This document shows, in pieces, positions 12,056 through 53,293 of a stretch of DNA of 64,000 nucleotides. Made by a program: the position numbers and the translations under genes. The notes under the pieces were generated by a model. The model was not told the DNA's origin. It made no database searches and was given only the letters and a program-made list of their open reading frames with translations. Each line of letters begins with the position of its first letter. The stretch's first letter is position 1. The DNA is from Salipaludibacillus neizhouensis (GTDB lineage: Bacteria; Bacillota; Bacilli; Bacillales; Salisediminibacteriaceae): the NCBI RefSeq assembly GCF_002886185.1, contig NZ_KZ614147.1:407187-471186 (forward strand). The letters run 5' to 3'.

Positions 12056-13417
12056 CTACGATTTCAATTGCTCTTTGATTTCTTGTATTTGTTTTTGCAG
12101 ATCCTGATCAGTAGCAAACAACCTGGCAATTTTGTCGTGGGCATGGATGACTGTAGTATGATCTCTTCCCCCGAATTCAACCCCAATTTTCGGCAATGAA
12201 TGGTCCGTCATCTCCCGTGACAAATACATCGCTATTTGGCGAGGATAAGCGACAGTTTTCGTTCTTTTCTTTGCTTTCATGTCTTCCACTCTTACCTGAA
12301 AAGTCGCAGCTACCGTTTTTTGTACATCTGCAATGGTAATCGTTTTTGGTTTTGAATTAGGAATAATATCTTTTAGTGCAACAGCAGCCAAATCAGCGTT
12401 CATATCTTGATTTATCAACGATGAATACGCAACAACACGGATGAGTGCACCTTCAAGCTCACGAATATTTGTGTCAATTTGATTTGCAATGTACAACATC
12501 ACTTCATTAGGAATATCCAAATTCTCAGCTTTTGCTTTTTTACGTAAAATAGCAATTCTTGTTTCCAGATCCGGCGGAGTAATATCGGTAATCAGTCCCC
12601 ATTCAAACCTGGAACGCAGTCGATCCTCCAATGTAGGAATTTCTTTAGGAGGACGATCACTGGATATTACAATTTGTTTTCTTTCCTCATGTAACGAATT
12701 AAATGTATGGAAAAATTCTTCTTGTGTCTGTTCTTTTCCAGCTAAAAACTGAATATCATCTATGAGCAGCACGTCTACATTTCGATATTTATTACGAAAA
12801 TTAACGGCTTTATTGTCTCGTATGGAATTAATAAATTCATTTGTAAATTTCTCAGAGGACAAATAGACGACTTTAGCATTTGGATTATGATCCATGACAT
12901 AGTGTCCGATCGCATGCATTAAGTGAGTTTTCCCTAATCCGACTCCTCCATAGATAAAAAGAGGATTATACGCCTTAGCAGGGGCTTCAGCGACAGCTAA
13001 GGATGCTGCATGTGCAAATCGGTTACCACTGCCTATAACGAACGTATCGAATGTATATTTTGGATTAAGAATATGTTTCGGTATAATCTCTTCCTGGTTT
13101 TGAGCAGGAGGTTCAGGTGATTGTTTAACCTTGTCAAAAAGGTCTAAATCATTATTCTTATCTTCTTTAGGTAAAATAAATTTCGTTTCAAGCTCAGCAC
13201 CGGTTAATTCATTTAAAGTTTCTGTAATAATTCCGAAATAACGATTTTCCAGCCAGTCTCTTGCAAACTCATTAGGTGCAATCACAGTGATTGTGTTAGA
13301 GCTTTGATCAATAGAATCTGCTTTTGTGAACTTAAACCACGTATCAAAGCTCGGTTTACTAACTTTTTCTGAGATTTTAGATAGGGCTTGTTCCCATAAG
13401 TCTTCAAGATTTTCCAA
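12056..13417 (-). CDS. dnaA: Chromosomal replication initiator DnaA
   Basis: 453 aa from a TTG at 13417. This start is chosen because GGGAGGG lies about 9 nt upstream and [12 protein letters not shown] aligns with other Bacillus DnaA; the open frame extends to 13633 but that part has no homology. Domain I is the first ~85 residues, followed by a short variable domain II. The AAA+ domain has Walker [16 protein letters not shown] and Walker [13 protein letters not shown], and the C-terminal HTH domain IV has the DnaA signature [11 protein letters not shown]. The TTG start may reduce translation. DnaA boxes flank the gene on both sides, consistent with autoregulation. Confidence 0.98.
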
Positions 13418-13558
13418 TTTTCTTATCCCTCCCTTGCGGTTTGTTACATAACAGAAATGCGAATTTAAAAATAAGTTCGCAGGTTGTACAACCAATGTAT
13501 AATAGCAATGTATAAATATAAAGTTATACTCATTTGCTGAATTACTTGTGGAAAAACT

Positions 13559-50565: not shown

Positions 50566-50868
50566 AAGACCTAAATGTGAAAAATAATTCTTCAATTGTA
50601 ATAAAGGGTGGAGTAAAAAATACTTTAATGGTGTTATGAAACGTTGATTGTCAAAGTTAAAATAAATAAGTGTACTGGAAGAACGATCTAGTATACTTTA
50701 TTTCGATTGATCTATTTTTTTATTGTCATTCGGTCTAGTCTATTGTGATTATTTATAGTTGTTTGGTAGTTGTCGATGGAAGTAAAATAATCGTTATAGA
50801 AAGCATTTTTCATGATGGGAAGTATATTCTCTATCTATTTTAAGTGCTTATAAATATTAAATTCACAT

Positions 50869-51001
50869 GTATACAATAGAGTACACAAGAAAACTTTATG
50901 TATTCTTTTTGTTTTCGTAATCGTGTACATGTATACAAACTCGTATACATATCTTTGTTAAGGTGTTTACGGAATGTTTCCTTGTATACGTTCGTGTATA
51001 C
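50869..51001. repeat. Candidate centromere (parC-like): three doublets of GTATAC iterons
   Basis: GTATAC occurs at 50869-50874, 50931-50936, 50943-50948, 50984-50989 and 50996-51001, and GTACAC at 50881-50886. They form three pairs, each with a 12-bp internal period (50869/50881, 50931/50943, 50984/50996). Pair-to-pair distances are 62 and 53 bp, close to six and five helical turns. The array lies 115 bp before the actin-like gene, where type II plasmid partition loci keep their centromere and operator. Confidence 0.7.
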
Positions 51002-51116
51002 AATCACGAACGCAACTTTAGGATGATTGAAGAACGAACTCATCTACTATATTATTTAGTGAATGGTAGATATTAGTTATATAATATTACTAGTAAATGG
51101 AGAGGGATGAAAATAT

Positions 51117-52304
51117 ATGAGGAAAAGTAGAATTGCAGCAATTGATGTAGGTAATGATTCTATTAAAGCGTTATTTGGAAAAGCAGAATATGAGCTAAAC
51201 ATGCCTAATGTTATTGCGAGAGATACCGAAGATAGACCAGTAATAGGAATAGAAGAATTGGATGATAAAAATCCACTAGAAGGTGTACATATACGAGTCC
51301 ACTCACCTGCTTTAAGGGAAAACAATGCTATTTATCGTGTCGGTGACTTAGCAACTAAGAGCGGAAATGCAACTGAATTAGATCAAGGTAGCAGCAAATC
51401 TGAGGAAGATCAAACATTAATCATGCTTTTTGCTTCTTTGGCATTAGATGCAGCCAGAGCAGAAAATGAGGATTTGTTTGAAAGAAAAGATAGCGTGATT
51501 AATGCTAATTATACGCTAGGTACAGGACTACCTCTTCGTGAGGTGAAAGAAGGAAAGGACGTGGGGTATCGTTCACGTCTTTTAGGATCTGTTCATCAAA
51601 TTGAATTTTTAGTAACTCCCAAATATCAAGGTATAAAGGTGAATATAAAGTTTGACCATGTGAAGGTTTACCCTGAGGGCTTTGCTGCTTATATTAACTT
51701 AGTTATGGATAATGATTTAAATATCATTAACAGAGACTTAGTAGATAAGAGAATTTTAATCCAGGACATTGGTGGGTTAACTACAGATATTGCTGTTATT
51801 GAAAATCGGAAGGTAGACGATGATAAAGCTCAAGGGTTTAATATTGGAGTATCTGAATCTTTAGAATCTATCAGAGAAGAAATTAGAACAAAACATGGTG
51901 TAGAGCTAGATAGTCGTAGAGATGTAGTCGAAGTAATCACAAAGAAACACGATCGAAATCATATTATGGTCAAAGGTAGTCGGACAAGCGTTCATGATAT
52001 TACGGATAGAATATTATTAGAAATTGCTAAGAAACAATACCGACATTTACGCAATGTTTGGCAAAAAAATTCCCAAACTGAGATTTGTTATTTTGTAGGT
52101 GGAGGGTCCATGGTTTTAAAGGAGTATCTCAAAACGATCAATAATAATTTAGATGGTTACAATATTGATTTTTTTGAAGACGAAAAAGAGAGTATTTGGA
52201 TGATGGCTAATGCGTATTACAAGTTAATCTCCGCTTTTGATAAAAAGAATAATAAAAAACAAGTAGAAGAAGAGGCAGAGAAAAGAACTGTAAAAAACAA
52301 ATAG
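51117..52304 (+). CDS. parM: ParM-like actin-type ATPase
   Basis: 395 aa. Actin/Hsp70 fold motifs: phosphate-1 AAIDVGNDSIKALFG (residues 8-22), phosphate-2 IQDIGGLTTDIAV with Asp217, and the adenosine motif YFVGGGSMVL with glycines at 328-330. The C-terminus after about 380 is Lys/Glu-rich. Such proteins polymerise into filaments that push or pull DNA bound by an adaptor at a centromere. GGAGAGG lies about 10 nt before the ATG. Followed 9 nt later by its presumed adaptor and preceded by the GTATAC array. Closest in type to the plasmid ParM/Alp group; the exact subfamily cannot be fixed without a search. Confidence 0.85.
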   Translation: MRKSRIAAIDVGNDSIKALFGKAEYELNMPNVIARDTEDRPVIGIEELDDKNPLEGVHIRVHSPALRENNAIYRVGDLATKSGNATELDQGSSKSEEDQTLIMLFASLALDAARAENEDLFERKDSVINANYTLGTGLPLREVKEGKDVGYRSRLLGSVHQIEFLVTPKYQGIKVNIKFDHVKVYPEGFAAYINLVMDNDLNIINRDLVDKRILIQDIGGLTTDIAVIENRKVDDDKAQGFNIGVSESLESIREEIRTKHGVELDSRRDVVEVITKKHDRNHIMVKGSRTSVHDITDRILLEIAKKQYRHLRNVWQKNSQTEICYFVGGGSMVLKEYLKTINNNLDGYNIDFFEDEKESIWMMANAYYKLISAFDKKNNKKQVEEEAEKRTVKNK

Positions 52305-52313
52305 GGTGATTTT

Positions 52314-52937
52314 ATGCTAAAAAAGGGGACTGCAAAGATTGAGAGGGGACAGGCGATTACATTTCGCCTACCTTCTGACACACCAGATCATATATTGAGG
52401 CAATTACAAAAGTTAAAAGAAACTGAGAGAAGAAACTTTTCCAGTGAAATTGCTAAGTTTATTTTAGACGGGGTAAGTAATTCCCTTTCAAAAGAAAGAG
52501 AAACAGTGACAATTCCTCTTCCGAGACAATTAACAAAAGAACAGCGTAATTGGTTAAAACATTCTCACTCTGAAGCTTTGTTAGGGAGTGTCGTCTACCA
52601 GTTATTAGCAGATCCGGTTCGAGCAACTTCTTTTCTAGCGTCTCTTAATAGCAACGCGATAGATATTGATGAGGCGTTATATCTACAAGAGACTAATGTC
52701 TCAGCGGAAGAATTCAAAACTGGTGACGACCAATCTAATTTTAACCATGAGTTGAAAGAACCTCAGAATCCTGTAACTAATGAAAAAGATGACGTGGAAG
52801 ATGATTTGATGAACTTTGATTTGACAAAGGCAAGAGAAGAGTATGCATCGTCTTCAGAAGATAGTCAAGAAGAGAAAGTGGAAGAAGAGGATGGAGAAGA
52901 TTTACTTGGAGATTTTCTAGCACAAATGAACAAGTAA
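52314..52937 (+). CDS. ParR-like adaptor protein (putative centromere-binding partner)
   Basis: 207 aa. Residues about 12-50 (QAITFRLPSDTPDHILRQLQ, then RRNFSSEIAKFILDG) have the strand-helix-helix look of a ribbon-helix-helix DNA-binding unit. A second, weaker copy follows at about 63-100 (VTIPLPRQLTKEQRNWLKHS ... LLGSVVYQLLADP). From about 115 the chain is low-complexity and strongly acidic, ending LLGDFLAQMNK, a short hydrophobic motif in the place where ParR tails cap ParM filaments. The assignment rests on operon position and architecture, not on recognised sequence identity. Confidence 0.65.
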   Translation: MLKKGTAKIERGQAITFRLPSDTPDHILRQLQKLKETERRNFSSEIAKFILDGVSNSLSKERETVTIPLPRQLTKEQRNWLKHSHSEALLGSVVYQLLADPVRATSFLASLNSNAIDIDEALYLQETNVSAEEFKTGDDQSNFNHELKEPQNPVTNEKDDVEDDLMNFDLTKAREEYASSSEDSQEEKVEEEDGEDLLGDFLAQMNK

Positions 52938-53153: not shown

Positions 53154-53196
53154 AAGTGTATATAAATGAGGAATAAAACCTCATTTATATACACTT
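53154..53196. repeat. Perfect 18-bp inverted repeat downstream of the partition genes
   Basis: AAGTGTATATAAATGAGG (53154-53171) and CCTCATTTATATACACTT (53179-53196) are exact complements with a 7-nt loop (AATAAAA). No T-tract follows on either strand, so it is not an ordinary terminator. The arms contain TGTATATA, loosely like the GTATAC iterons. Confidence 0.7.
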
Positions 53197-53250
53197 TAGA
53201 GAACCATATCATAAGTGAAATATAGTAGATATCTCTTAATTACTACTTAA

Positions 53251-53293
53251 AACTCCCGTCTCATTTATGTTGGATGACACGGGAGTTTTTTAG
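53251..53293. terminator. Bidirectional terminator between the partition operon and the oxidoreductase gene
   Basis: AACTCCCGTC pairs with GACACGGGAGTT (two-base bulge), followed by TTTTT on plus and by TTTTAAG on minus. Confidence 0.8.

Follow-up and report, generated by a model that had tools for sequence, protein, structure and literature searches.

A conserved origin-proximal cassette of the ParM–ParR–parC type in the chromosomes of Salipaludibacillus neizhouensis and related Bacilli

Introduction

Chromosomal ParM proteins were reported in 2025 under the names Dh-cParM1, Cb-cParM and Bt-cParM1/2; polymerisation was described for Dh-cParM1 and Cb-cParM, as was the binding of Cb-cParR to its cparC, conservation across several Bacillus chromosomes was reported for Bt-cParM, and the proteins were published without a known function (PMC12270681). 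A closed beta-barrel subdomain is given there as a feature of ParMs. The text consulted from that report gives no description of linkage to the origin, of a DnaA-like rate of evolution or of how widely the proteins are spread. Active partition has also been published for integrative conjugative elements (PMC4489591). A literature search that covered titles and the beginnings of abstracts, with many subscription papers lying outside it, returned nothing on the Bacillaceae family described below, nor on its origin linkage, conserved centromere, rate or breadth.

The present study concerns a cassette found in a stretch of 64,000 nucleotides of S. neizhouensis (contig NZ_KZ614147.1), hereafter called the window, in which an iteron array, a gene for an actin-fold ATPase and a gene for an adaptor protein follow one another. 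It is best explained, with a probability that we would put at about 0.6, as a resident chromosomal type II ParM–ParR–parC machine that acts on the origin region beside Soj/Spo0J.

Results and Discussion

The ATPase and Its Adaptor

When one genome per species was scanned, 423 related stretches emerged, and the best 80 of these (79–92% identical and so drawn from the closer relatives, several with less than 5 kb of flank) are referred to below as the named loci. In the window, parM occupies 51117..52304 on the forward strand and encodes an actin-fold ATPase of 395 aa of the Alp7A/ParM type, and 9 nt further on parR (52314..52937, forward strand) encodes an adaptor of 207 aa, both open reading frames being present as called in the initial annotation. 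The ATPase carries the domain of the Alp7A family (Alp7A_like_C, E=1.2e-37, 129.5 bits vs. a Pfam cut-off of 22), and its other Pfam matches are MreB-like_C (archaeal) at 5.8e-15, ALP_N at 1.2e-11 and MreB_Mbl at merely 0.097, while among the PHROGs it matches a 'partition protein' at 3.6e-42. All three nucleotide-binding motifs had been recognized when the locus was first annotated, and the residues of the three stretches that we take to be these motifs of ParM (D10-V-G-N13; D217-I-G-G220 with T223-D224; G328-G-G330) are invariant in 37/37 aligned orthologues. The best of five AlphaFold models has a mean pLDDT of 76.4 (the other four, 50–62), and the fold matches of this model at ranks 1–13 include BtParM, Alp7A, pSK41 ParM, Dh-cParM1 and pCBH ParM, together with the archaeal actin Ta0583, the first MreB-family chain appearing at rank 22. 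Sequence searches against solved structures gave weak matches to Clostridium ParMs (best E 0.00032, or 0.005 with a profile). An MreB- or DnaK-like ATPase, which the initial annotation had named as the outcome that would speak against partition, is rejected, as both Pfam and the ranking of the modelled fold favour the ParM/Alp group and the PHROG match agrees. Six of the tabulated genomes (G442, G584, G687, G704, G706 and G725) have one stop inside the parM match; five of them sit beside open frames of 390–391 aa, so that the stop is probably the natural end of the gene.

An adaptor gene next to parM belongs to type II partition loci, and parR lies directly after parM in all 80 named loci; the gap is 8–43 nt in the 79 whose start could be resolved. 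In its product, a conserved N-terminal part (about 110 residues) is followed by an acidic, variable linker and a conserved C-terminal end, DLLGDFLAxMN(K), in which F201, L202, M205 and N206 are invariant (37/37). We take this end, DLLGDFLAxMNK, to be a putative ParM-binding tail by analogy with the ParR of R1, since structure 4a62 is ParM with a peptide of the ParR C-terminus. Searches with the 207-aa protein against Pfam, NCBIfam, PHROGs and PDB gave nothing above noise, and its AlphaFold2 monomer, a model too weak (mean pLDDT 61.9) to confirm the ribbon-helix-helix DNA-binding fold that marks a ParR and that the initial annotation had suggested, consists of helices with no strands and has no structural match at E≤0.001. 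Its homology to ParR was established through plasmids. Among seven plasmid records that were fetched, a small gene of 133–149 aa directly follows parM in six, the seventh stretch stopping at the end of its record so that no following gene is visible, and a profile of these six genes matches that of the chromosomal ParRs in hhalign at 99.7% (E=7e-27, 112 N-terminal columns), by which the 207-aa protein is a ParR homologue.

The chromosomal ParRs are longer, at 180–213 aa, than their counterparts on plasmids, and in a plasmid search none of 22 records had a place covering 80% of the chromosomal protein. Both observations would suit a cassette that has been recruited to some other cellular task, such as the placement of septum or membrane machinery in sporulating cells, the control of cell shape, or sensing by means of filaments; parC would then chiefly be an autoregulatory operator. 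This explanation is considered unlikely, given the number and spacing of the iterons, described next, which exceed what a simple operator needs, and given that it offers no reason for the origin-proximal place of the cassette.

The Iteron Array

An iteron array ahead of parM had been noted in the initial annotation, and a parC-like array was located at 50868..51002 (forward strand). It comprises eight TGTNNACA-type sites, three exact and five with one end letter off, all fitting TGTNNAC/GTNNACA and with start-to-start spacings of 12, 42, 8, 12, 22, 19 and 12 bp. Pairs of the form TGTATAC-N6-GTATACA are exact at 50930 and 50983 and have one mismatch at 50868. At up to three mismatches, the pair pattern has nine matches in the window vs. 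3.08 expected, a count that 1 of 100 shuffles reached, and five of the nine fall in the array locus; the lone word TGTATAC is a weaker signal (13 in the window vs. 6.57 expected, reached in 4 of 100 shuffles), with eight of its occurrences in the array locus. When one exact pair pattern at one spacing, TGTATACA-N5-GTATACA, was scanned genome-wide, the array locus was its sole location, and there may be other arrays elsewhere in the genome with other patterns or spacings. At two mismatches, 6 of 12 genome-wide matches to the pair pattern lie outside the array locus, vs. 20 for the reversed control.

The array is a constant companion of the two genes. Iterons of the TGTNNACA type occur upstream of parM in 80/80 named loci, where their density in the 450 bp before the gene is 13.6 per kb (491 sites) vs. 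0.23 per kb over the remaining 831,527 bp of these loci (191 sites) and is the higher of the two in every locus, the motif having been derived from the same upstream regions in which it was later counted. On average, each named locus has about six exact palindromes, with spacing peaks at 8, 12, 20, 42 and 62 bp. By its presence beside the parM–parR operon, such an array would be the centromere-like element of a type II partition locus.

Between the iterons and parM lies a promoter-like sequence, TTGAAG-17-TATTAT (51027..51055, forward strand), which is weak when taken alone, being one among 19 such sites in the stretch (12.1 expected). The related pattern TTGANN-(16-18)-TANNNT occurs within 160 bp upstream of parM in 71/80 loci vs. 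49/800 random segments of that length. A candidate promoter that follows the array is a further point in favour of an autoregulatory operator, as proposed under recruitment to another task.

Position and Neighbourhood

In the window, rlmH precedes the cassette by 1 kb, and dnaA is 38 kb away. The origin region of the window is marked by dnaA itself (12056-13420, reverse strand) and a GC-skew switch near 13 kb, and there are two parS sites (22088 and 24963), tRNAs, and genes that we presume to be soj- and spo0J-like, all of which support the chromosomal setting, about 38 kb from oriC, that had originally been proposed. The rRNA mentioned alongside is also present as 16S, but merely as a piece of 127 nt cut by the start of the window.

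Position was compared across 50 genomes, made up of few-contig genomes (1–4) and of five named loci that include one draft (G763). As G573 and G762 denote a single genome, the count is of 49 distinct genomes. In every one of these, parM is on the same contig as dnaA, on the opposite strand to it, and co-oriented with rlmH. As for conservation next to rlmH, a check proposed in the initial annotation, parM lies downstream of this gene in 48/49 genomes, at a coordinate difference of 1.7–233 kb, the exception being G430, with parM 1.2 kb on its other side. Distances from parM to the origin could be measured directly in 25 genomes and range from 36 to 259 kb, with a median of 80 kb. In each of these genomes parM lies behind dnaA and, being on the opposite strand, is transcribed away from the origin. 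A further 15 wrap-around distances span 37–269 kb, two calculated with exact chromosome lengths and 13 with lengths rounded to 0.1 Mb, and for the remaining nine genomes, in which extra contigs hide the chromosome length, the distance to rlmH alone is known (1.2–233 kb).

The surroundings of the cassette are fluid. While parC, parM and parR stay together in 80/80 loci, the flanks change, and within 5 kb no other gene recurs in more than 11 of the 80; the next gene downstream in the window was found in 1 of 49 searched genomes, there at 840 kb vs. parM at 108 kb. Changing neighbours and the wide range of distances to rlmH are what could be expected if an integrated plasmid had left the cassette behind as a relic, or if the cassette stabilised genomic islands entering the chromosome downstream of rlmH, and the published partition of integrative conjugative elements gives this idea a precedent. 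The low recurrence of accompanying genes, at no more than 11 of 80 loci, counts against it, as do the single match per genome and the evolutionary data below, and it is regarded as highly improbable. The side and strand of parM are explained by vertical descent from a single ancestral site downstream of rlmH, and the place of the cassette as a whole may reflect this descent rather than a constraint. A small distance to the origin that persists despite the turnover of neighbours is, for its part, what a position-dependent function would give, although it is no proof of one.

Two inverted repeats were observed beyond parR, ahead of a convergent gene that presumably encodes an FAD-dependent oxidoreductase. 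The first (53154-53196), between parR and this gene, is a perfect 18-bp repeat, AT-rich and with no T run after it on the forward strand; the second (53249-53289) has a GC stem followed by a T run and probably acts as a terminator between the two genes, although it is absent from the list of the terminator scan.

Distribution and Evolution

The cassette is carried by 209 of the 397 genomes sampled from the order to which the window belongs, spread over 54 of 128 genera, with one match each at E 8e-197 or better (ParM identities are available for part of them). It is missing from the other 188, and within Salipaludibacillus it is present in 4/8 genomes and missing from 4/8, indicating that it is dispensable in many lineages. 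Three of the tabulated genomes, G002, G004 and G005, have the same contig coordinates as, and are identical to, the Salipaludibacillus loci L007, L005 and L006. In a class-wide sample of 398 genomes, 24 have a ParM at 77–100% identity, and the other 17 that pass E 1e-40 are all at ≤44%, a clean gap that sets the chromosomal ParM family apart, in terms of sequence identity, within this sample. A cassette of this kind in the chromosome had at first been called unusual; it belongs instead to a slowly evolving, origin-linked family that about half of the sampled genomes of the order carry. The gene spo0A is present in 392/397 genomes (208/209 with parM and 184/188 without), so that its distribution cannot discriminate a link to sporulation, and a search for a B. 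cereus-group marker gave no match anywhere, controls included, which makes it uninformative.

In three named loci, a partial second parM-like stretch lies about 0.7–1.4 kb upstream of the intact parM (L011, 3556-4271; L055, 3952-4257; L058, 3977-4344), which we read as what remains of a duplicated gene or of some other copy. In Psychrobacillus antarcticus (L062, 7507-7806) a further, incomplete parR-like stretch follows downstream.

A tree of the ATPase, proposed as a check in the initial annotation, places 81 chromosomal ParMs in one clade apart from seven plasmid ParMs (SH-aLRT 100), with long plasmid branches and 33/82 inner branches weak. It tracks genera beyond chance (37 changes vs. 52.5 when shuffled), several named genera being non-monophyletic. 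The ParMs of L029 (Pseudomonas sp. ISL-84) and L066 (Paenibacillus bovis DE0126) sit among Cytobacillus/Bacillus, and these are possibly mislabelled genomes. For parM, dN/dS is 0.02–0.05 wherever dS was usable in comparisons with the window (three pairs) and 0.004 between the closest relatives, L006–L007 (two of six pairs were saturated); for parR it is 0.07–0.18. By these sequence comparisons parM is under purifying selection. In 39 of 43 genomes, similarity to the corresponding protein of the window is greater for ParM than for DnaA (means 80.7 vs. 77.5%; the exceptions are G409, G440, G538 and G701), six of the 49 having been omitted as DnaA was matched in part, and with ParM matches that often omit the variable last residues.

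Such slow evolution is unlike that expected of a dispensable plasmid relic, and dN/dS far below 1 and one clade that follows genera beyond chance speak equally against a relic or island module. A cassette that changes about as slowly as core genes suggests a role in moving or positioning the chromosome itself, in keeping with a resident chromosomal machine acting on the origin region. Within the chromosomal family, the cassette is no recent plasmid acquisition; its ancient origin may have been a plasmid.

Plasmid, Conjugative and Viral Relatives

No phage record matches ParM at E≤1e-5. In viral contigs, 2 of 143 pattern stretches encode a ParM relative, and both contigs contain conjugation genes, by which they look like a conjugative element; a restrictive pattern scan of viral contigs with the ParR profile found none. 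A phage origin of the cassette is rejected on these grounds. The initial annotation had offered a domesticated plasmid or phage system as one explanation, of which the phage and the recent plasmid (within the family) fall away and an ancient plasmid may stand.

The two contigs (L113 and L114, metagenomic and from IMG/VR) come from the same sample and are identical over the whole 15.7 kb compared, so they perhaps represent one element. Its parM (L114:9901-11137) is a member of the chromosomal family, 82% identical to a Neobacillus chromosomal ParM (L075) and, at 75% identity to that of the window, the sole relative above 44% beyond the chromosomal members of that family. Three TGTNNACA sites lie just upstream of it, no parR was found within the 21 kb seen, and its neighbours specify TcpC, an AAA_10 ATPase, which we take to be VirB4-like, and a replication-relaxation protein. 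The element looks as though it took parC–parM from a chromosome, or the reverse, and it might use the ParR of its host. Since a conjugative element carries a member, the chromosomal ParM family is not strictly chromosomal.

It could be argued from this element, and from a Paenibacillus polymyxa plasmid (L108) that likewise has three TGTNNACA sites upstream of parM, that the cassette acts upon mobile DNA, its parC, ParR and ParM competing with or serving incoming plasmids that bear like iterons (incompatibility or hitch-hiking). This appears improbable. Relatives of ParM in 46 plasmid records are all below 60% identity, the best at 43% among the 40 listed; 5/7 plasmid upstream regions have no TGTNNACA site; and a slowly evolving ParM that forms one clade is unlike the product of an arms race.

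Proposed Mechanism

The type II partition cassette of the initial annotation is supported by a ParM-type fold, ParR homology and a conserved centromere-like array. Its parts, their co-inheritance, the constraint on their sequences and their origin-proximal position are observed; we infer DNA binding, filament formation, and force or action on the chromosome. As a resident origin-region machine, it would most simply work as follows. The conserved N-terminal part of ParR would bind the iterons 115–249 bp upstream of parM, and its conserved C-terminal end would cap or nucleate ParM filaments. ATP-driven polymerisation of ParM between sister arrays, soon after replication, would then allow the filaments to push apart, or to hold, the sister origin-proximal regions, alongside Soj/Spo0J-parS.

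Extended to the whole family, this would mean that a dedicated actin spindle, made up of an origin-linked centromere, ParR and ParM, serves to segregate or position chromosome origins in about half of an order of spore-forming Bacilli. It would have been inherited with the chromosome, evolve more slowly than DnaA and operate beside ParABS, and some conjugative elements may exploit it with parC–parM and no parR. We consider the chances of this broader proposal to be evenly balanced. With a conserved centromere-like array near oriC and one match per genome, the family offers a natural test of chromosomal ParM function. Cultured, named carriers include Alkalihalophilus pseudofirmus OF4 and Heyndrickxia coagulans 36D1, both of which we presume to be genetically manipulable, and the many related species without the cassette provide natural controls.

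Comparison with Known Systems

Like the chromosomal cParMR systems (PMC12270681), the present cassette has a parM with a nearby parR on the chromosome, conserved across species, and Dh-cParM1 (8x1i) is at rank 10 of the predicted fold matches. It differs from the solved cParMs in sequence, the window ParM being 16% identical to 8x1i and 17% to the Clostridium chain 7x54, and while no conserved cparC was identified among strains for the Clostridium cassettes, according to the same report (PMC12270681), an array is present here in all the named loci. If Bt-cParM should belong to the same family, the existence of the family has been published before, and the present contribution lies in its origin linkage, conserved centromere, rate and breadth.

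The Alp7A–Alp7R type II partition system of B. subtilis plasmids is similar in that Alp7A_like_C is the best Pfam match of the window ParM and Alp7A (5ec0) its sixth fold match; unlike Alp7A, to which it is 18% identical (5ec0), the window ParM is chromosomal and origin-linked. Plasmid cassettes of the Bacillales are closer in sequence: the ParMs of B. methanolicus pBM69, Peribacillus pB and P. polymyxa pPo45 are 41–42% identical over 94% of the query, and the gene after parM, where visible in the fetched records (6/7), is homologous to the window parR. Their short ParRs, however, are without the long linker and DLLGDFLAxMN end of the chromosomal protein, their iterons are of other types in 5/7, and their ParMs form a separate branch. 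Finally, Soj/Spo0J-parS (ParABS), also present in the window, resembles the cassette as a chromosomal partition locus close to the origin, but its ATPase is of the Walker type, its ATPase and adaptor are unrelated to ParM and ParR, and the two systems coexist here.
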